NCBI RefSeq assembly: GCF_000484535.1
Contig: NC_022600.1
Coordinates: forward strand, 310,001 to 374,000
Length of the DNA: 64,000 nt
Direction of reading: 5' to 3'
DNA from: Gloeobacter kilaueensis JS1
Lineage (GTDB): Bacteria > Cyanobacteriota > Cyanobacteriia > Gloeobacterales > Gloeobacteraceae
Part shown: positions 155-10,463 of the stretch, in pieces
How positions within the stretch are numbered: the stretch's first letter is position 1
Layout of the letters: every line of letters begins with the position of its first letter
The notes under the pieces: generated by a model
The model's input: the letters and a program-made list of their open reading frames with translations, nothing else
Told to the model about the DNA's origin: nothing
Database searches by the model: none
Position numbers and translations under genes: made by a program

Positions 155-1138
155 ATGAAAGCCTTCATTCTTGCCGCTGGCAAAGGCACGCGGCTGCGTC
201 CCTTCACTGACGCCTTACCCAAGCCACTGATGCCTGTGCTCAATAAGCCGGTGATGGCCCATATTCTGAATCTGTGCCACAAACACGGCTTTGATCAGCT
301 CGTGGCGAATCTGCATTATCGGGGCGAGAAGATCAGCGCCTTTTTTAGCAACGGTGCCGATTATGATGTTTCTCTGCAGTACTCATGGGAGGAGCAATTG
401 CTGGGCACTGCCGGTGGAGTGCGACGGCAGGCGGACTTTCTGGCAAACGATACCTTCTTGGTGATCTCGGGGGATGTTATGACAGACATCGACCTCACCG
501 CCTTGCTAAAGTTTCATCGTGAAAGCGGCGCTGTCGCTACTATGGCCGTCAAGGAAGTTGGCGACCCTAGCCGTTTTGGCATCGTTGTGACAGAGACAGA
601 CGGACGGGTGACACGTTTTCAAGAAAAGCCTGCCCGTGGTACAGAACAATCGCGTCTGGCAAACACGGGAATTTATGTCTTAGAACCCGAGGTGTTCAAC
701 TGGATACCGCCGATGGCCTTCTTCGACTTTGGGAACGACCTGTTTCCAATGCTGGTGGCAAAGGGAGCACCCGTCTACGCCATGCACACCGACGCCTACT
801 GGTCAGATGTCGGCACTCTGGGTCAGTACCTCTATACCCACTGGCAGTTGTTGACCCATCCGGGCACGAAGGAGCGAATCGGCAACAATACGCTCATTGA
901 GCCAGGGGCAGTTGTCTCTGAGCAGGCTCTAGTTGGCAGTAACTGCGTAATTGAGGCTGGAGCACGGGTGCTTGGTTATAGTTGTGTGAGCAACTCTTGC
1001 GTCATCCGCTCTGGAACTGTTGTATGCGATAGTGTTGTCTGGACAACGGAACAATTCGCCCACATTCTCTCCGGCGAACTGGTCCGCTCGATTTGGGGAG
1101 ATGGAAAACAGGTCTCTCTCGACATGCCAAATTTGTGA
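155..1138 (+). CDS. Sugar-1-phosphate nucleotidyltransferase with C-terminal left-handed beta-helix
   Basis: This 327-residue cytoplasmic enzyme should join a sugar-1-phosphate to an NTP to make an NDP-sugar. The NTP_transferase signature LAAGKGTRLRPFTDALPKPL lies at residues ~6-25, a catalytic-type VISGDV near residue 107, and a hexapeptide-repeat tail after ~residue 245. The architecture matches RmlA/GlmU/MurU-like and mannose-1-phosphate guanylyltransferase families; the exact sugar cannot be read. A GAGGAGG ribosome site lies ~8 nt before the ATG. The flippase gene starts within ~30 bp, so the two are likely co-transcribed. Supply of an activated sugar to the surrounding glycan cluster is inference. 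Confidence 0.87.
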   Translation: MKAFILAAGKGTRLRPFTDALPKPLMPVLNKPVMAHILNLCHKHGFDQLVANLHYRGEKISAFFSNGADYDVSLQYSWEEQLLGTAGGVRRQADFLANDTFLVISGDVMTDIDLTALLKFHRESGAVATMAVKEVGDPSRFGIVVTETDGRVTRFQEKPARGTEQSRLANTGIYVLEPEVFNWIPPMAFFDFGNDLFPMLVAKGAPVYAMHTDAYWSDVGTLGQYLYTHWQLLTHPGTKERIGNNTLIEPGAVVSEQALVGSNCVIEAGARVLGYSCVSNSCVIRSGTVVCDSVVWTTEQFAHILSGELVRSIWGDGKQVSLDMPNL

Positions 1139-1168
1139 TTCTTGATTCCTAAACGTATAAACCCAGCG

Positions 1169-2632
1169 ATGAATCTACGCCAGAAAGCTGTAAAGGGAGT
1201 AGGGTGGTCTGCTGTCCAGAATTTCGGGAGTCAGGCTGTCGGCTTATCAGTCTACTTGATCTTGGCTCGCCTGCTCGGGCCGGAAGTGTTTGGACTGGTG
1301 GCCCTCGCCAGCATTTTTGTGGCTTTCGTACAGGTCTTTCAAGATCAGGGCCTTAACGAGGCCATCATTCAGCGTCAGAAGCTGGATGAGTTGCATCTGG
1401 ATACAGCTTTCTGGACCAATTCTGTTATGGGGCTGCTTCTGACGCTTTTGGGTGTCATCGGCAGCAGTTGGGTGGCCCTGTTCTTTCGTGAACCACGGCT
1501 CAGTCCAGTGATCTGCGTTTTGTCCCTTGGGTTTGTCATTGGTTCTCTAAGTGCAGTTCAGCAGGCGATCCTCACCCGCGACTTTGCCTTTAAGGCGCTG
1601 GCGGCTCGTTCACTCAGTGCAACCTGCTGCGGTGGTGTGGTCGGCATCGCTATGGCTATAGCTGGCTTCGGCGTCTGGAGCTTGGTTGGTCAACAGTTAA
1701 CCAACCAGTTCATTGGCCTTGCCATGTTATGGCGAGCAAGCCCTTGGCGTCCGAAGCTGCGCGTCTCCCGTAAACATCTGGGTGAATTGCTCGCTTTTGG
1801 CGCGAATGTTACAGGCTACAACCTGTCCAACTTTTTCAATCGTCGTTCCGACGATTTCTTAATTGGTTACTTTCTTGGCCCTGTAGCTCTAGGTTACTAC
1901 AGCATCGCCTACCGTATCTTGACGGTAATGGTTCAGTTGCTCACGACAACAACGACACAGGTGGCATTGCCTGCATTTTCACAACTCCAGCAGCAACCAG
2001 AACGATTGCGCTCGGCCTTTTATACGGTCACGCAGTTTACTAGCTTGATCTCTTTTCCGATTTTTCTTGCTGTCGCTGCGCTAGCTCCAGAACTGGTCGC
2101 AACCCTTTTTGGCAGCAAATGGACAGCGAGCGTTTCTGTTATGCAGGTGCTCTGTCTCGTCGGCATTCAACAATCTATATTTTTCTTTAACAGTACGGTC
2201 TTAATGGCAATGGGAAAGCCATCCTGGCGTCTGTGGCTCAATTTGTTGAACTCTGCCTGCGGGGTGGTTGCCTTTGCTCTGGCAGTTCGTTGGGGTATTG
2301 TAGCAGTGGCAGCAGCCTACGTTCTGCGCGTCTATCTGCTCTCACCTTTTACGTATTGGGCAGTTGATCGGCTCATTCACTTGGACTGGAAAATGTATCT
2401 CCGTCAGTTTCTCCCGGCTCTAGCTGGCTCAATAGCGCTACTTCTGGTCATTACAGCGATCAAAAGCATTGTCAGAGAGTCATTAATCCCTTACCAGTTG
2501 CTGCTAATCTGTAGCGGTGCCAGTTTGGGTACTTATCTGTTTGTTCTGCGCTTCAGTTCCCCCAACTTGTTCAAGCGTATGCTCGACACCTTACGTCTGT
2601 TTCTGCCAAGGGCTGCAGCACGGGTTCCCTAG
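1169..2632 (+). CDS. Polysaccharide flippase, Wzx/MOP superfamily
   Basis: This integral inner-membrane protein (~487 residues) has about 12-14 hydrophobic helices. Its N-terminus (VKGVGWSAVQNFGSQAVGL, residues ~8-26) and the LARLLGPEVFGLVALA segment are typical of the Polysacc_synt/MATE-like flippases that move lipid-linked glycan units across the membrane. The frame is open from a TTG at 1142, but ATG 1169 places the start where family members begin. It sits between the nucleotidyltransferase and MurB-like genes, as expected for an O-antigen or exopolysaccharide locus. The family is clear; the glycan it moves is unknown. Confidence 0.88.
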   Translation: MNLRQKAVKGVGWSAVQNFGSQAVGLSVYLILARLLGPEVFGLVALASIFVAFVQVFQDQGLNEAIIQRQKLDELHLDTAFWTNSVMGLLLTLLGVIGSSWVALFFREPRLSPVICVLSLGFVIGSLSAVQQAILTRDFAFKALAARSLSATCCGGVVGIAMAIAGFGVWSLVGQQLTNQFIGLAMLWRASPWRPKLRVSRKHLGELLAFGANVTGYNLSNFFNRRSDDFLIGYFLGPVALGYYSIAYRILTVMVQLLTTTTTQVALPAFSQLQQQPERLRSAFYTVTQFTSLISFPIFLAVAALAPELVATLFGSKWTASVSVMQVLCLVGIQQSIFFFNSTVLMAMGKPSWRLWLNLLNSACGVVAFALAVRWGIVAVAAAYVLRVYLLSPFTYWAVDRLIHLDWKMYLRQFLPALAGSIALLLVITAIKSIVRESLIPYQLLLICSGASLGTYLFVLRFSSPNLFKRMLDTLRLFLPRAAARVP

Positions 2633-2692
2633 CTTCAGCGGCACGCTACTTGCGATATGCGTCTGAGAAAGAATCGATTGAGGGAAATTGAG

Positions 2693-3532
2693 ATGGTCAA
2701 CGTAATTTCCTTAGACTCAAATCAACTTTCAACTTTCCGAACCCATCATCACTTTGAGCATTACGGAGAGTTTCACGATCTTGATGAATTTGCAAAGTAC
2801 TCTCACTGGGCTGCCTTGAACAATGCAAAAGTGTACATCCTCGGTAATGGATCGAATACGCTCTTTACGGCTGACACGATTCGTGCGCTGGTGCTTAAAA
2901 ATTGCATCCCCAAATTACTGAAATCACTTCCTGATAACAGGCTTGAGATCAGCTCAAGCGTACAAATCAATGATGTCTTGAACTACTGCTATCAGCGCTC
3001 TCTCACCTCCTTTTATTATCTGGCGTCTGTACCGGCGAGCATCGGAGGAGCCTTAGCCATGAATGCTGGACGTGGCAGGAGTCATAATTGCACCATCTAC
3101 GATTTCGTCGAGAGTGTAACGTTTTTCGACGGAGAGACAGTAAAGACCCTCAAGAACGATGAAATTGCAAGAGGCTATCGCAAAACAATCTTTACAGGGA
3201 TGCACGAGAAGCTGATCTTGAGCGCAATTCTACAATTTGAGAGAACGGAATTTGGGATAAGCCCTATTTCAGAGCGTCGCCAATTTGCAAAAGAGCACCA
3301 AGACAATACTCAACCCAATTGCGGTACGGTTTTTAAGTCTGCCTGCTATCCCATCATGGATCGGCTGCGCGGCATACGGGTTGGAGAGGCACAGTTTTCC
3401 CAGAAAACTAGTAACTGGATTCTCAACAAATCTGCGAGCAGCAGGAATATCATGCGCTTGATTGCAATTGCCAAGTTACTGCATCTGGTTACATTCAGGA
3501 AGATTGAGCTTGAAGTAATTAGTGTCAATTAA
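2693..3532 (+). CDS. MurB-like FAD-binding oxidoreductase in a glycan cluster
   Basis: This 279-residue protein resembles UDP-N-acetylenolpyruvoylglucosamine reductase (MurB). A flavin-binding GNGSNTLF lies at residues 51-58, SVPASIGGALAMNAG at 112-126, and the YR of the substrate-binding YRxSxF motif at 162-163 (GYRKTIF). A C-terminal GEAQFSQKTSNWILNK resembles the end domain, and Glu273 sits near the usual catalytic Glu. The catalytic Ser/Cys position in canonical (A)GSxFKNP reads CGTVFKSA, so Thr212 replaces it. ATG 2693 has GAGGGA upstream; an in-frame ATG at 2657 lacks a good site. Location among glycan genes and relaxed motifs suggest a role other than housekeeping MurB; this is inference. 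Confidence 0.75.
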   Translation: MVNVISLDSNQLSTFRTHHHFEHYGEFHDLDEFAKYSHWAALNNAKVYILGNGSNTLFTADTIRALVLKNCIPKLLKSLPDNRLEISSSVQINDVLNYCYQRSLTSFYYLASVPASIGGALAMNAGRGRSHNCTIYDFVESVTFFDGETVKTLKNDEIARGYRKTIFTGMHEKLILSAILQFERTEFGISPISERRQFAKEHQDNTQPNCGTVFKSACYPIMDRLRGIRVGEAQFSQKTSNWILNKSASSRNIMRLIAIAKLLHLVTFRKIELEVISVN

Positions 3533-3589
3533 GTTATCTATTGTGAAAGTAACAGAGTCAGCTCAAACCCACCCACAGGAATGCCAGTC

Positions 3590-4687
3590 ATGAAAGTAGG
3601 AATTCTGACATTTCACCATACGACTAACTATGGTGCTATGCTTCAAAATTACGCATTAGCTAAAACAATTGCAGCTATGGGATTTGACGTTGAGGATATA
3701 GATTACCGTCCCTACAGAGCAGTTCGATACTACCTGAAGGAGAATTTTTTACCAGGCCGTCCACTACTTAGCAATCTGATTAAGTACTGGAAAATGAGCG
3801 AGTTTAGAAAAGCCCATATCAAGCTCAGCAATTCTACCTGTTACACTCGCGAAGGTCTGCAACGGTATCGTCGAAATTATGATGCCGTCATCTGTGGTAG
3901 TGATCAAGTCTGGTGCATCGATTCATTTCGCAGATATGATCCCTCCTACTTTCTCGATTTTATCGACCAACAAGCAACTCGCAAGATAAGCTATGCTGCC
4001 AGTGCTGCCTGGACCACCACCTTTGGGCAACATAAGCAAAAGACGGCGAATTTGCTGCGCCACTTTTCTGCTATTTCTGTCCGCGATGCGAATACTCGAC
4101 GGCTTGTTAAAGAGGAATGTGGTCTCGACGCACCTTGCGTTTTAGATCCGACCTTTTTGGTGAACTACGATGAGCTCTTGGCCACAAATACTATCCCCCA
4201 AAAGAGCCCATACCTGCTTATTTATAAAATGGGACCAATGCAGAGAGACGAAGAGAAGTTCATTCTAGAACTCGCTCGTTCTAAAAATCTGGAGGTTCTT
4301 TCTGTTGGATATTCCCATAAAATCGCTACTAGAAGAAATTTTATCGGGATTGGACCTCAAGAATGGGTAAATTACTTTGCTAATTCCCAGTATGTGTTTA
4401 CCGATTCCTATCATGGAACCATTTTTTCGATTATTTTTAGAAAGCCCTTTAATGTTTTCGTAGACACTACCAAGGCAACCAAGACCGGTGATTTGCTCCT
4501 CGAATTAGGATTGACCGACCGGATTTTCGGTACTGGAGCCACTACTGACCAAGTGGACTATACCTTTGCGGCTGAAAAGTTGGCCAGGCAAATTCAGTTG
4601 TCCAAGGCATTTTTATCTCAAGCGTTAGCGGATGTTTCTCAAGTCGCCATCCTCGAATCAGGTGGAAAGATAAACATCTCTGGCTGA
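3590..4687 (+). CDS. Polysaccharide pyruvyltransferase family protein
   Basis: This protein of ~365 residues belongs to the PS_pyruv_trans family, whose members add ketal pyruvate to surface polysaccharides or act as related glycan-modifying transferases. The diagnostic start KVGILTFHHTTNYGAMLQNYAL (residues ~2-23, read in two parts as KVGILTFHHTTNYGA and MLQNYAL) and the inner ICGSDQVWC near residue 100 are both present. A later TDSYHGTIFSIIF matches the C-terminal conserved block. An in-frame ATG lies 9 nt upstream at 3581. The gene is noticeably AT-rich compared with the second half of the window. Acceptor sugar and true activity are unknown. Confidence 0.85.
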   Translation: MKVGILTFHHTTNYGAMLQNYALAKTIAAMGFDVEDIDYRPYRAVRYYLKENFLPGRPLLSNLIKYWKMSEFRKAHIKLSNSTCYTREGLQRYRRNYDAVICGSDQVWCIDSFRRYDPSYFLDFIDQQATRKISYAASAAWTTTFGQHKQKTANLLRHFSAISVRDANTRRLVKEECGLDAPCVLDPTFLVNYDELLATNTIPQKSPYLLIYKMGPMQRDEEKFILELARSKNLEVLSVGYSHKIATRRNFIGIGPQEWVNYFANSQYVFTDSYHGTIFSIIFRKPFNVFVDTTKATKTGDLLLELGLTDRIFGTGATTDQVDYTFAAEKLARQIQLSKAFLSQALADVSQVAILESGGKINISG

Positions 4688-4737
4688 GTGGTCTTCTCGT
4701 TTATAGAGTGCGTGAAGCGTCAAAAGTTATAAGTACT

Positions 4738-6189
4738 ATGGCTGCGATTAAATCTCGAGCAATCAAATGGGCGCGCTATGCCTCCAGTTTTTTACTCGAT
4801 GGAATAGATTTTCTACATCGTCAAATGCTGGCCGGACGAGCACAACGCACGCTTGCTCGATTGCAGTCCTGCGGCGTCGGTGTTCGTGTCCTTGGAAAGT
4901 TGTACGTCTCAGAGCCAGAGGCTGTCGCTATCGGAAACAATGTCCACATTGGTGACAACGCCTACTTCAGAACAGAGGGCGGCCTGACGATCGGCGACAA
5001 CGTTCATATGAGCCGCAACGTCACTATATATACAACTAATCACAACTTCACAGGTGCTGTCCTGCCTTACGACAATACTGACTTGCTAAAGCCGGTCACT
5101 ATTGGCAAAAATGTCTGGATCGGCATGAATGTGTCAATTGTATCGGGTGTCCAGATTGGCGATGGTGCGATCATCGGCATGGGAGCCGTGGTGACACGGA
5201 ATGTTCCTGCTCTCGCTATCGTTGGCAATCAGCCGATCCGTGTTCTCAAGCATAGAGATGCGGAGCACTACGAACAGCTAGAGCAGGCGCGCGAATACGG
5301 TGGTGTCAACGGCAAACCTTTAGCAAGAACGAATGTGCAACAGTTTGAGCCTAGTGCTGCGGATGCACAGATGTTTTTTGTTGCTACTGCCGAAGGGACG
5401 AGTAGCAAGATGATACATAATCTGCTTACTCAGCTGCCTGATGTTACCTGTATACACGAAGGAAGACCTCAGCTTGTGCGGCTTGCAACAGAGTTGGCCC
5501 ACGGTTTGAAGCAAAAAGAGCAGGTTAAAGAAGAATTGAGGGCTCTCTACTGTAATAGCAGTGTTTTTTCGGGTTACTTGCACGGCGAGATCGATCACAA
5601 GTTGTGTCAGCTAATCGGCGTTTTGGCGGAATTGCTTCCGGCGGGTAAGATTATCTGGTTGATTAGAGATGGTAGGAACGCTGTAGCTTCAACCTGGACA
5701 GAGGGTTGGTTTTCCTGCGAAGAAGCCGAGCAGATCGTTCCAGTTAACTATAATTCTGGCAATCCAAAGCTACGGTGGATCAGCTATCGTCTGGATGGGG
5801 CAAAGTGTGGTTGTTTCAGTGAAGAAGAGTGGAATCGGCTGTCTACTTTTGAGCGCAACTGCTGGTATTGGTCCTACAGCAACCGAGAAATCGAGAGGCA
5901 ACTTTCTTCACTTCCTGCTTCGCGAAAGGCGTTCTTTCGGCTAGAGGAACTGCAGACACAGCTCGGTAATTGGCTCACTTTTTTGGGACTTCAGCAACAG
6001 CAGGATCTATCTTTGATCGCACCAACCCAGGGCACTGGTGCTCCGGGCTGGCAGAGTTGGCAGGCAGATCAGATCGCTGCTTTTGAACGCCAGTGCGCTG
6101 GGGAGATGGACCGCTGGTACCCTGGCTGGCGACGAGGGACTCCCTGGCAGGTGGGTCATCCATCAAAAGCAGAACCGCTCCCGTCCTGA
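4738..6189 (+). CDS. Fused hexapeptide acyltransferase and sulfotransferase-like protein
   Basis: This 483-residue protein has two parts. Residues ~45-190 form a left-handed beta-helix of the WbbJ/maltose O-acetyltransferase type, with TTNHNFTG and the series VTIGKNVWIGMNVSIVSG and IGDGAIIGMGAVVTRNVP. Residues ~213-480 look like a sulfotransferase: FFVATAEGTSSKMIHNLL stands at the usual phosphosulfate-binding loop and WLIRDGRNAVAS (~residue 306) resembles the 3'-phosphate-binding strand-helix. ATG 4738 is preferred; a GTG at 4708 is in frame. It closes the polysaccharide operon. Acetylation plus sulfation of one glycan is an inference. The sulfotransferase assignment is weaker than the acyltransferase one. 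Confidence 0.75.
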   Translation: MAAIKSRAIKWARYASSFLLDGIDFLHRQMLAGRAQRTLARLQSCGVGVRVLGKLYVSEPEAVAIGNNVHIGDNAYFRTEGGLTIGDNVHMSRNVTIYTTNHNFTGAVLPYDNTDLLKPVTIGKNVWIGMNVSIVSGVQIGDGAIIGMGAVVTRNVPALAIVGNQPIRVLKHRDAEHYEQLEQAREYGGVNGKPLARTNVQQFEPSAADAQMFFVATAEGTSSKMIHNLLTQLPDVTCIHEGRPQLVRLATELAHGLKQKEQVKEELRALYCNSSVFSGYLHGEIDHKLCQLIGVLAELLPAGKIIWLIRDGRNAVASTWTEGWFSCEEAEQIVPVNYNSGNPKLRWISYRLDGAKCGCFSEEEWNRLSTFERNCWYWSYSNREIERQLSSLPASRKAFFRLEELQTQLGNWLTFLGLQQQQDLSLIAPTQGTGAPGWQSWQADQIAAFERQCAGEMDRWYPGWRRGTPWQVGHPSKAEPLPS

Positions 6190-6250: not shown

Positions 6251-7918
6251 TTAGGGGAAGGAGACATCCTGCCAGTCTGGAGAAGCAAAGTACCAGTTGC
6301 TCACTCCCATCTGGTGGTTGTTCACATCCAGTCCGGCATGAGGAGCGGTCGGGTTGATCCAGTAGTCTGCGCCAATCTGCACCAGCACCGGACCGGTAAT
6401 CTTCAAGCGGCCCTTCACCGAGCAACTGCTCACCGTGTTCGCCGCAAAGGATGGACGCGGATAGGCCGTTCCATAAAAATGCCAGACTTTGTCCGCTGCC
6501 GTGGTCGGTGTAAATGTCGTCGAGTTGTTGGCGGCGTTGTAGCTCCAGGGCATCGGGTCGTGGGCGTCGTTGTTGCCGTACCAGGGGTCGCGCACGTAAA
6601 GACCACCTGCCATTGTTCCCTCGTCGTGCTGCATCAAGGTATTCTTGCCGCTCACGACGCACCACAGCTCCATGTAGTCGATCTCCACACTGCCTGGACT
6701 GCTCGGCTGGTTGGTATCGACGATCGACTGGCCCCAGTAGGTCGCAGACGTCCAGCCGGACGGGGCAGATGTCGGGCTATCGACATAAGCCGAACCGCTC
6801 GGCACATCCGCTGGTACCCCGGCGTCCGGCAGGGTAAAGTTCTGGCTGGTGCTCACCTGGCTATCGCCCATTGAGAGGGTGATAGGTCCACTTCTGGCGG
6901 TAGTAGGAACAGTTGCTGTCACCTGGCTGGAGGAGTCCCAGGTGTACTCGCCATAGGCCGGGTTGCCGTCTGCTCCTTGAAAGGCAACGCTGGTAACGTT
7001 GATGAGGTTAGTGCCTTTGATGACGACCTGGGTGTAGATGGTGCCGTTAGTGGGTGAGAAACTGCTGATGCTGGCAGGGGCACTGCTGAAGGAGGAACTG
7101 CTGGTGGCGGTGCCGGTGCTGGTTTTGACAGTGACGGGTCCACTGAAGTTGCCGGTGGGTGTGGTGGCTGTGATCTGGTTGGTGGAGTTGATGGCGTAGG
7201 TGAGGTAGGTGTTGCCGACTTTGACGGAACTGGCACCGTTGAGGTTGGAGCCTGTGACGATGAGTTGGGTACCGGGAGGGCCGCTGGTGGGTGAAACACT
7301 CGTAATCGATGGTGTAGGCGTGATGAAGGTAAAAGGCGTGGAACTGGAGGCTTGAGCGATGCTGGTTTTGACGACGATGTTGCCGGTTGTAGCGTTACTG
7401 GGCACAGTGGCCGTAATCTGGCTATCAGAGTTAACAGTGTAAGTGGCATAGCCGTTGCCAAACTTGACAGAGTTGGTGCCGCTATAAAAGCCTGCGCCCT
7501 TGATGACGACCTGGGTTCCTGGCAAACCACTGGTGGGTGAAAAGCTGCTGATATTGGCAGAGACCGTGAAGCCACTGCTGCTACTTATATAAGAGCCACC
7601 AATGTTGGCAACGATGTTGCCAGTTGTAGCACTGCTGGGCACAGTGGCCGTAATCTGGCTATCAGAATCAACAGTATAGGTGGCATAGCCATTGCCAAAC
7701 TTGACGGAGCTGACGCCGTTATAAAAACCGGAGCCTTTGATCGCAACCTGTGTACCCGTCGAACCATTCGTTGGAGAGAAGCTGCTGATCGTGGCAGCAG
7801 TCTGAGCGAGGGCAGAAGACGGAGGAAGATTGAAGGAGAAAGTCTGGATGGAGGCAGCCGTTGCATTCAAAGCGAGCAAAGCAGCAGCACAGACGGAAAC
7901 TCGATGAAGTACAGACAT
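6251..7918 (-). CDS. Secreted protein with four IPT/TIG repeats and an unknown C-terminal domain
   Basis: This 555-residue protein begins with a likely signal peptide (hydrophobic AAALLALNATAAS). Four IPT/TIG immunoglobulin-like repeats follow, each opening with ISSFSPTNG-type sequence and carrying GTQVVIKGxxF and SQITATVP blocks. From ~residue 365 comes a ~190-residue tryptophan- and tyrosine-rich domain (containing WYGNNDAHDPMPW) that I do not recognise. TIG repeats usually stiffen extracellular or surface proteins, so an exported adhesin or carbohydrate-binding role is possible but not shown. The repeats are also similar at DNA level (see the repeat entry). It is transcribed toward the polysaccharide operon from a long upstream region shared with gmd. 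Confidence 0.8.
   Translation of the reverse strand: MSVLHRVSVCAAALLALNATAASIQTFSFNLPPSSALAQTAATISSFSPTNGSTGTQVAIKGSGFYNGVSSVKFGNGYATYTVDSDSQITATVPSSATTGNIVANIGGSYISSSSGFTVSANISSFSPTSGLPGTQVVIKGAGFYSGTNSVKFGNGYATYTVNSDSQITATVPSNATTGNIVVKTSIAQASSSTPFTFITPTPSITSVSPTSGPPGTQLIVTGSNLNGASSVKVGNTYLTYAINSTNQITATTPTGNFSGPVTVKTSTGTATSSSSFSSAPASISSFSPTNGTIYTQVVIKGTNLINVTSVAFQGADGNPAYGEYTWDSSSQVTATVPTTARSGPITLSMGDSQVSTSQNFTLPDAGVPADVPSGSAYVDSPTSAPSGWTSATYWGQSIVDTNQPSSPGSVEIDYMELWCVVSGKNTLMQHDEGTMAGGLYVRDPWYGNNDAHDPMPWSYNAANNSTTFTPTTAADKVWHFYGTAYPRPSFAANTVSSCSVKGRLKITGPVLVQIGADYWINPTAPHAGLDVNNHQMGVSNWYFASPDWQDVSFP
7375..7810 (-). repeat. Tandem ~240-bp intragenic repeat (two units) in the TIG gene
   Basis: The segments around 7375-7560 and 7615-7800 are near copies: both contain the same block from GGGCACAGTGGCCGTAATCT through the GGCATAGCC...TTGCCAAACTTGAC stretch, spaced by ~240 bp. 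They encode the first two TIG repeats. Strong DNA identity suggests recent duplication or gene conversion, and the unit number may vary between strains. Confidence 0.75.
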
Positions 7919-8401
7919 GGATGACCTCTAACACGAAGGTAGATGCAAATAGACACACGAAAACCGCGTTGTTCTGATGAACCTTCTGGTATTCAGTGAG
8001 TTCATTCAGCAGGATTGGGCAAAGCTAATAGTTGCTCTGGCCATCGGTTAATTGATGGGCTTTCGTCTCGGTTCTTTTGTTATTCGTATTCTGCAATCTG
8101 AAACATGATAGACACTACCGTCATCCGACTAACTTTAGGGACTCATAAAATTCCTGGCAGCTATCCGCCTGGTTAGCTCCTGCAAGCCCAAACTCTGCTG
8201 CAGAAGGGTACCGATACAGCCCAAATAGGACAGCCACCTGGCCAACCATCAGCAATGGGTCGGCATCTCGGGTGAATCTCTCAGGTGGCAGTTCTGGCTT
8301 CTACCGTTCCATCCGTCCAGCGTCCGTATTATCCTGGTGAGAATTGCTCACTCAGTCACAGCGACTCCGGAACAGTGGCTCAAAAGGAAGGAGATGGATA
8401 C
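7919..8401. other. 483-bp divergent intergenic region
   Basis: This spacer separates the TIG gene (minus) from gmd (plus) and must hold both promoters. The TIG side is AT-rich; the gmd side contains GC-rich partial inverted repeats. I see no RNA gene, no convincing protein-coding frame and no clear -35/-10 pair. An open frame upstream of gmd from 8285 lacks a ribosome site and codes for a tail atypical of GMD, so it is treated as non-coding. Confidence 0.5.
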
Positions 8402-9451
8402 GTGAGAAAGGCTTTGATCACAGGCATAACCGGCCAGGACGGCTCGTACCTCGCCGAGTTCTTGCTTGAAAAAGGCTACGAGGTACACGGACTGCGCCGC
8501 CGCTCCAGTAGTTTCAACACTGGCCGCATCGACCATCTCTATCTCGATCCCCACCAACCGGAGGCACGCCTTTATCTGCACTACGGCGATCTATGCGACG
8601 GCACTGGCCTGCGGCATCTTGTTGAGCAGATCCAGCCGGACGAGGTCTATAACCTGGCCGCCCAGTCCCACGTCGCTGTCTCCTTCTTGCAGCCTGAGTA
8701 CACGATCGAGGTAAATGCCACCGGCACCCTGCGATTGCTGGAGGCGGTGCGCGATCTGTGTGATCGCAGTGGCAGGCAGGTGCGCTTTTATCAGGCGGGT
8801 ACCTCGGAGATGTTCGGTTCTAGCGCGCCTCCCCAGTCGGAGATAACACCCTTTCACCCCCGCTCACCCTACGCCGTCTCGAAGGTGGCAGCTTACTGGC
8901 AAACGGTCAACCACCGCGAAGCCTACGGCCTGTTTGCCTGCAACGGTATCCTGTTCAACCACGAGTCGGAGCGGCGCGGCGAAACGTTCGTCACGCGTAA
9001 GATTACTCGGGCTGCCACGCGCATCAAACTCGGTCTGCAGGAGCATCTGTACCTGGGCAATCTCGGTGCACGGCGCGATTGGGGCCACGCCCAAGATTAT
9101 GTACGGGCCATGTGGCTGATGCTGCAGCAGGATGCCCCGGACGACTATGTCGTCGCCACCGGTGAGTCCTACGCAGTGTCGGACTTTGTTGAGCGGGTAT
9201 TTGCGCGCCTGGAACTCGACTGGCAGGAGCATGTGCGGGTAGATCCGCGCTACTTTCGACCGGCAGAGGTGGAGTTTTTGTGGGGCGACCCGGCCAAAGC
9301 CCAGCAGCGTCTGAACTGGCATCACCACGTCAGCATCGATCAGCTAGTAGAGCGGATGGTCACCAGCGACCTGATGCTTGCCCAGCGCGAGAAAGTACTA
9401 AAAGAAGCAGGTGTGCTCGGCTCTGCGACTGGTTCTGCTTATATGTTCTAA
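8402..9451 (+). CDS. gmd: GDP-mannose 4,6-dehydratase
   Basis: This enzyme converts GDP-D-mannose to GDP-4-keto-6-deoxymannose, the first step to GDP-L-fucose. At 349 residues it matches the family. The Rossmann motif GITGQDG is at residues ~8-14, the YxxxK catalytic pair is Tyr157/Lys161 (SPYAVSK), and the GMD-specific [16 protein letters not shown] block follows. The start is GTG 8402, with AAGGAAGGAGA ending ~10 nt upstream; the longer frame adds 39 unrelated residues. The GDP-fucose synthase gene follows 43 bp downstream, so the two form a pathway operon. Confidence 0.95.
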
Positions 9452-9494: not shown

Positions 9495-10463
9495 ATGAGC
9501 GAGCTTCAAGATCAGCGAGCCAAAATTTATGTTGCTGGCCACCAGGGTCTGGTAGGCAGTGCAATTTTGCGCCAATTGAACAAACTTGGATTTTCAAATA
9601 TTGCGACCCGCACCAGCCACGAACTGGATCTGCGCGATCAGGCTGCGGTCAACACTTTTTTTGAGGCGGAGCGACCAGATTATATTTTTTTGGCAGCGGC
9701 TCGCGTCGGCGGCATTCTTGCAAATAGCACGTATCCGGCCCAGTTCATCTATGACAATTTGATGATTGCGACCAATGTCATTCATGCAGCCTGCGTCTAC
9801 AAAGCTCGCAAGCTGCTGAATCTTGGCAGTAGCTGCATCTATCCAAAACTGGCACCGCAGCCGCTCAAAGAGGAATACCTGCTGACAGGACCACTGGAAC
9901 CGACCAACCGCGCCTATGCCCTGGCCAAGATTGCAGCCATCGAGCTTTGCGATCACTACCGCACCCAGTATGGCTGTAATTTTATCTCGGCAATGCCCAC
10001 CAACCTTTACGGCCCCGGCGACAACTTTGATCTCCAGTCCTCCCACGTTCTGCCCGCGTTGATGAGTAAGATCGTTGCTGCTAAACACGCTGGCGCAGCG
10101 GCAGTGGAAATTTGGGGAACAGGCCAACCCCTGCGGGAGTTTCTGTACGTCGATGATCTTGCGGATGCTTGCATCTTTTTGATGAAACACTTCGACGATC
10201 CTGGGCCAATCAACGTGGGTACCGGGGTCGATCTGAGCATCAGGAATCTTGCTGAACTGATCTGCGAGATCGCCGACTACGGCGGTGAGCTGGTCTTTGA
10301 CAGCAGCAAGCCGGACGGCACACCGCGCAAGTTGATGGACGTCTCACGGCTGACAGCGATCGGTTGGCAGGCCAGAACGAGCCTCCGTGAAGGCATTCAA
10401 AAGACACTGGCGTGGTATTTGTCGGAGCACAGGCTCTCAGGACTACTATCAAAAACTTCCTGA
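9495..10463 (+). CDS. wcaG: GDP-L-fucose synthase
   Basis: This 322-residue epimerase/reductase takes the Gmd product to GDP-L-fucose using NADPH. It shows the Rossmann GHQGLVGSAI near residue 15, the family block LGSSCIYPKLAPQP, and the catalytic Tyr141/Lys145 (RAYALAK). PTNLYGPGDNFD is the characteristic GMER segment. It follows gmd on the same strand. The last 15 bp overlap the end of nadK on the opposite strand, so transcription converges there without an obvious terminator. Confidence 0.95.
   Translation: MSELQDQRAKIYVAGHQGLVGSAILRQLNKLGFSNIATRTSHELDLRDQAAVNTFFEAERPDYIFLAAARVGGILANSTYPAQFIYDNLMIATNVIHAACVYKARKLLNLGSSCIYPKLAPQPLKEEYLLTGPLEPTNRAYALAKIAAIELCDHYRTQYGCNFISAMPTNLYGPGDNFDLQSSHVLPALMSKIVAAKHAGAAAVEIWGTGQPLREFLYVDDLADACIFLMKHFDDPGPINVGTGVDLSIRNLAELICEIADYGGELVFDSSKPDGTPRKLMDVSRLTAIGWQARTSLREGIQKTLAWYLSEHRLSGLLSKTS

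Follow-up and report, generated by a model that had tools for sequence, protein, structure and literature searches.

The window is a 64,000-nt stretch of the genome of Gloeobacter kilaueensis JS1, which consists of a single contig of 4,724,791 bases; the nearest matches come from a MAG of Aphanocapsa lilacina. Near the start of the window lies a run of five genes (155-6189), all on the plus strand and separated by gaps of 3, 24, 48 and 20 bases. The first gene of the run within the window (155-1138) encodes a nucleotidyltransferase with a hexapeptide tail, of the sugar-1-phosphate nucleotidyltransferase type (PF00483, 175 bits; PF00132). It is followed by a Wzx-type oligosaccharide flippase (1142-2632; PF13440, 323.9 bits), a MurB-like flavoprotein of 279 aa (2693-3532; PF01565 and PF02873), a polysaccharide pyruvyltransferase-family protein (3590-4687; PF04230, 142.2 bits), and a protein that combines a hexapeptide acyltransferase with a sulfotransferase-like region (4708-6189; PF00132, with PF13469 sub-threshold). 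These assignments bear out the initial annotation, which had placed a MurB-like frame between a Wzx flippase and a pyruvyltransferase gene. The open reading frame of the MurB-like gene spans 2657-3532 (plus strand), with 2657 as an alternative start, and 2693 is the better start because the alignment with its relatives begins there; the pyruvyltransferase frame opens at 3581, and its conserved start is 3590.

Two further plus-strand genes probably supply sugars for the same glycan, a GDP-mannose 4,6-dehydratase (8285-9451; PF16363, 466 bits) and a GDP-fucose-synthase-type epimerase/reductase (9495-10463; PF01370, 213 bits), and glycosyltransferase-like ORFs were seen by inspection of the sequence upstream of the window. 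One Aphanocapsa locus (L004) has the same gene order (flippase, MurB-like gene, pyruvyltransferase, acyl/sulfotransferase), and the flippases in this position are 69% identical. The acyltransferase and the sub-threshold sulfotransferase region form one reading frame in the window, and this arrangement is kept in the Aphanocapsa locus (53% identity). The glycan cluster is flanked on the opposite strand by two TIG-domain proteins (window 6251-7918, minus strand, and C1:304997-306661 of the contig, minus strand), which are 89% identical and are a recent duplication.

Both MurB domains are present in the MurB-like protein, with 42.3 bits for FAD_binding_4 (PF01565) and 28.7 bits for MurB_C (PF02873; cut-off 27). 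Its best sequence matches in the PDB are MurB chains (4pyt, E=9e-17), and the top 18 matches of a fold search were all MurB; the AlphaFold models behind such searches were shallow and of low confidence (pLDDT 62 and 72), and served as fold support only. The motifs first quoted for this protein (GNGSNTLF, SIGGALAMNAG, GYRKTIF and CGTVFKSA) are present as given. When the active site is aligned with that of E. coli MurB, as had been proposed, Arg163 (codon 3179-3181) and Glu274 (codon 3512-3514) coincide with Arg159 and Glu325, and Thr212 (codon 3326-3328; all codons on the plus strand) coincides with the catalytic Ser229, a residue named in the title of PDB entry 1uxy. The threonine noted in the initial annotation is thus present at the catalytic position. 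It is not a marker of the family: only four copies have it, three from Gloeobacter/Aphanocapsa and one from Levilactobacillus, while the other MurB-like proteins paired with a pyruvyltransferase have serine, and on this ground it was dropped as the family's defining feature. Judging from the alignment, the threonine is a local variant.

The MurB-like protein therefore resembles MurB (E. coli; S. aureus 1hsk; 4pyt) in its FAD fold, its MurB_C domain and its Arg159, Ser/Thr229 and Glu325 positions, the equivalents of which are present in every paired MurB-like protein. It differs from MurB in other respects. Its scores fall below the cut-offs of the MurB equivalog models (NF010480, 118.0 vs 259; TIGR00179, 90.9 vs 144.5), and Asn233-Pro234 of the FKNP motif is replaced by Ser-Ala. 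In the paired proteins generally, these two residues and the loop that follows them are lost or altered, the exception being a retained Pro234 in one of them (L054). In addition, MurB has MNAGA where the protein in the window has MNAGRG, a motif that is invariant in the alignment of the close subfamily, which takes in homologues from Natrinema pellirubrum and Cetobacterium somerae.

A standard murB, for which a search elsewhere in the genome had been suggested, was found: it encodes a protein of 318 aa (match at C1:2636879-2637172, minus strand, 116.7 bits). Across 386 cyanobacterial genomes there is one MurB-type match in nearly all, and two in the source genome and in G101, a cyanobacterium of a different family; in both of these the second copy adjoins a PF04230 gene. 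The source genome contains only two EPSP-synthase-family (MurA/AroA-type) genes, and therefore has no spare MurA-type donor. The partner of the MurB-like protein is a pyruvyltransferase, whereas that of MurB is MurA.

The neighborhood is conserved, as the initial annotation had proposed to check, and recurs in distant genomes and in the form of fusions. With this and the ordinary murB elsewhere, neither of the two outcomes that the initial annotation had named as refuting it was obtained. A. lilacina has two MurB-like/PF04230 pairs in separate glycan clusters of one genome (L003, 10001-11980; L004, 2815-4810), and the two genes are directly adjacent in the archaeon N. pellirubrum and the fusobacterium C. 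somerae. Haloarchaea have no peptidoglycan, and the Natrinema protein therefore cannot serve peptidoglycan. More divergent MurB-like proteins are paired with PF04230 in Novosphingobium and in Levilactobacillus brevis, where a flippase gene alone stands between the two. A pyruvyltransferase-MurB fusion occurs in Paracoccus aestuarii (845 aa) and, in the same order, on an Enterococcus-associated contig (817 aa); in phage contigs from IMG/VR the order is reversed (MurB-pyruvyltransferase, 603 aa). No single strongly supported clade unites the paired MurB-like proteins, and MurB-like partners may therefore have been recruited more than once.

Several of these records have a context worth describing. 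The Enterococcus fusion lies in record OR846590, "Enterococcus phage Efs 1-1-1" (L057, 5998-8451), a 138-kb contig with ABC-transporter, glycosyltransferase and glf-like genes, which, though labelled phage, looks like host chromosome. The reversed fusion (L045, 6897-8708, and L044) is found on an IMG/VR phage contig in which genes resembling those for terminase and capsid were seen by inspection. It lies next to a cytidylyltransferase of the IspD type, an SDR protein and further ORFs resembling glycan enzymes, and the phage may modify a glycan of its host or of the virion. A plasmid of Haematobacter massiliensis (pOT1-6; L043, 8539-10882) carries a MurA-MurB gene pair within a surface-glycan cluster, which suggests a dedicated supply of UDP-muramic acid for that glycan. 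Other candidates were set aside, namely G747 and G658, two Bacillota in which MurB is surrounded by long open frames (ordinary cell-wall operons rather than fusions), Alkalihalobacterium loci L005 and L006 (where an ordinary murB lies within the division cluster), and murB matches in Stenotrophomonas, Lysinibacillus, Sinorhizobium and a Paenibacillus plasmid, which have no adjoining pyruvyltransferase.

The reductase partner varies among related pyruvyltransferases. In Gemmobacter fulvus the pyruvyltransferase part is 68% identical over 500 aa to that of the Paracoccus fusion, and is fused to a nitroreductase, not to MurB. Fusions are also found to FrhB in Marinibacterium and to a nitroreductase in P. 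alcaliphilus; in the tree of pyruvyltransferases these two branch together as sisters despite their different types of partner. Further nitroreductase partners occur on an E. coli plasmid contig and in L. plantarum and Allorhizobium, and further FrhB-like partners in Klebsiella aerogenes, Sinorhizobium and the E. coli O124/O164 O-antigen cluster. As far as gene content can tell, the constant part is a transferase of PEP-derived units together with some reducing partner, and the reductase is exchangeable.

The pyruvyltransferase of the window shares its family (PF04230) with CsaB, WcaK and Pvg1p. A PDB search with its profile gave zero matches, and the fold matches of its low-confidence model include Pvg1p (5ax7). 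Mutagenesis of CsaB implicated R148, H308 and K328 in PEP binding, with R306 added by docking (PMC10435577). In the alignment, the equivalents of R148 and H308 are present in the window protein and R306 is replaced by Ser, which gives S-Y-H in place of R-x-H; against the CsaB equivalog model (TIGR03609) the protein scores only 20.7 bits (cut-off 213.1). The same holds for reductase-linked pyruvyltransferases as a group: R148 and H308 are present and Ser, Thr or Phe stands in place of R306, the replacement being found in all 17 of those aligned first, whereas the ketal-type WcaK and cyanobacterial CsaB retain R-x-H.

We also sampled 60 Bacillota PF04230 loci regardless of their neighbors, most of which are R-x-H, CsaB-type loci without a reductase. 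A reductase was detected within about 3 kb at three of eight S-x-H loci and at none of 49 R-x-H loci (Fisher p=0.002). The S-x-H count rises to five of eight with wider windows and Pfam, in a search that covered the S-x-H loci only. The reductase near these S-x-H loci is often FrhB-like, though absent at some: no reductase was found among the genes checked at three of the eight, nor within 4 kb of the S-x-H pyruvyltransferase of Ruminococcus albus.

Lactic-acid ethers are known on enterobacterial capsules and O-antigens. The E. coli O124 and O164 clusters, which are grouped as identical, contain glycosyltransferases, wzx, wzy and glf, and beyond these only an FrhB-like and a PF04230 gene. E. 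coli O124 itself presumably bears a lactic-acid ether, 4-O-[(R)-1-carboxyethyl]-D-glucose, and we assume that Klebsiella K66 likewise bears a carboxyethyl ether. By elimination, the FrhB-like/PF04230 pair should make the ether of the O124/O164 glycan. The O124-type pyruvyltransferase is one intact gene in WEC and two adjacent annotated pieces in TUM18780 (L067, 501-3016; L059, 8148-9283), and the side group may have been lost in some O124 strains. According to its title, a 2006 paper reports a pair of glucolactilic-acid genes from Shigella boydii 17, a review names Shigella dysenteriae as a source of 4-O-[(R)-1-carboxyethyl]-D-glucose, and a further title reports cross-reaction of O164 with S. 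dysenteriae type 3. For Klebsiella, the cps survey gives K8, K22, K37 and K66 as having the pyruvyltransferase gene without a pyruvate ketal, and over 79 cps loci it lists nitroreductase genes twice and an F420-hydrogenase-like gene once. Paper titles describe 4-O-[(S)-1-carboxyethyl]-glucuronic acid in the K22 capsule, and O-acetylation as the sole difference between K37 and K22.

We consider that the MurB-like/PF04230 gene pair is probably (roughly three chances in four) a module that acts in two steps to place a lactic-acid (1-carboxyethyl) ether on a sugar of the surface glycan. In the first step, the PF04230 protein (3590-4687), as a proposed PEP-dependent enolpyruvyl transferase, would transfer enolpyruvyl from PEP to one sugar hydroxyl rather than form a ketal over two, the acceptor being a sugar that is bound to a nucleotide or a lipid and faces the cytoplasm. 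The FAD-bound MurB-like protein, as the proposed enolpyruvyl-glycan reductase, would then reduce the enolpyruvyl double bond with hydride from NADPH to give the lactyl ether. To judge from the conserved MurB residues, Thr212 (Ser in most homologues) would donate the proton while Arg163 and Glu274 hold the carboxylate. If the stereochemistry of MurB is kept, the predicted product is an (R)-1-carboxyethyl ether, and the adjoining flippase would export the modified oligosaccharide.

Three other explanations have to be weighed against this module. That the protein is a second housekeeping MurB, reducing UDP-GlcNAc-enolpyruvate for peptidoglycan or as a supply of UDP-MurNAc to the glycan, would account for the MurB fold and the retained catalytic residues, and the Haematobacter cluster shows that a MurA-MurB pair can lie among surface-glycan genes. 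We nevertheless find it quite unlikely, given the scores far below both equivalog cut-offs, the changes in the FKNP Asn/Pro and the loop after it, the ordinary murB elsewhere in a genome that has no extra MurA-type gene, and the homologue in Natrinema, an archaeon without peptidoglycan. It seems very improbable indeed that the resemblance to MurB is only superficial and that the protein is a DprE1-like enzyme from the broader group with the VAO-type FAD fold, acting on sugars as a FAD-dependent oxidase or epimerase: the FAD_binding_4 domain is common to such oxidases and DprE1 appears further down the fold-search list, but the MurB_C domain and the Arg, Ser/Thr and Glu set of MurB are conserved, and MurB alone fills the first 18 places of that list.

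The remaining alternative concerns the transferase, and supposes that the PF04230 protein forms an ordinary pyruvate ketal while the redox reaction of the MurB-like protein has no connection with it and takes place on a different sugar of the glycan. The PF04230 proteins of known product, CsaB and Pvg1p, do form ketals (PMC10435577), and the PEP residues R148 and H308 are conserved. Against this, fusion or adjacency recurs with three unrelated types of reductase, R306 is lost in the reductase-linked branch, reductases detected within about 3 kb in the Bacillota sample accompany S-x-H and not R-x-H loci, and Klebsiella K22, K37 and K66, as given in the cps survey, have the transferase and no ketal; we therefore regard it as unlikely.

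The two-step lactyl-ether module remains the best explanation found from sequence, and to this extent upholds the suggestion of the initial annotation that an enolpyruvyl-sugar made by the neighboring gene is then reduced. Its further suggestion of a new route holds in part only, because of the O124/O164 pair and the Shigella boydii 17 title. The O124/O164 system resembles the window in having a PF04230 gene adjoining a flavoprotein reductase beside wzx, and its side group is, from a paper title and a review, a lactic-acid ether; it differs in that its reductase is FrhB-like (PF04432/PF04422), with no sequence relation to MurB. The two-gene route thus appears already to have a precedent in O124-type clusters, and what is new is the apparent use of a MurB-derived reductase. 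Literature searches combining MurB with polysaccharide pyruvyltransferase gave nothing relevant, and in them we found no description of a MurB-type reductase for lactic-acid ethers.

A wider proposal, for which we would give about even odds, is that the S/T/F-x-H branch of PF04230 forms, independently of MurA, a second class of enolpyruvyl transferase, which works with interchangeable MurB-like, nitroreductase-like or FrhB-like reductases as a general lactyl-ether module distributed over bacteria, phages and at least one archaeon, and in which the reductase and the residue at the R306 position predict a lactyl ether as opposed to a ketal. If this is true, genes annotated as murB inside glycan clusters would be tailoring enzymes, also in peptidoglycan-free archaea, and sequence would predict which of the two decorations a glycan carries. 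On the transferase side, the chemistry of MurA and MurB would then have evolved a second time.
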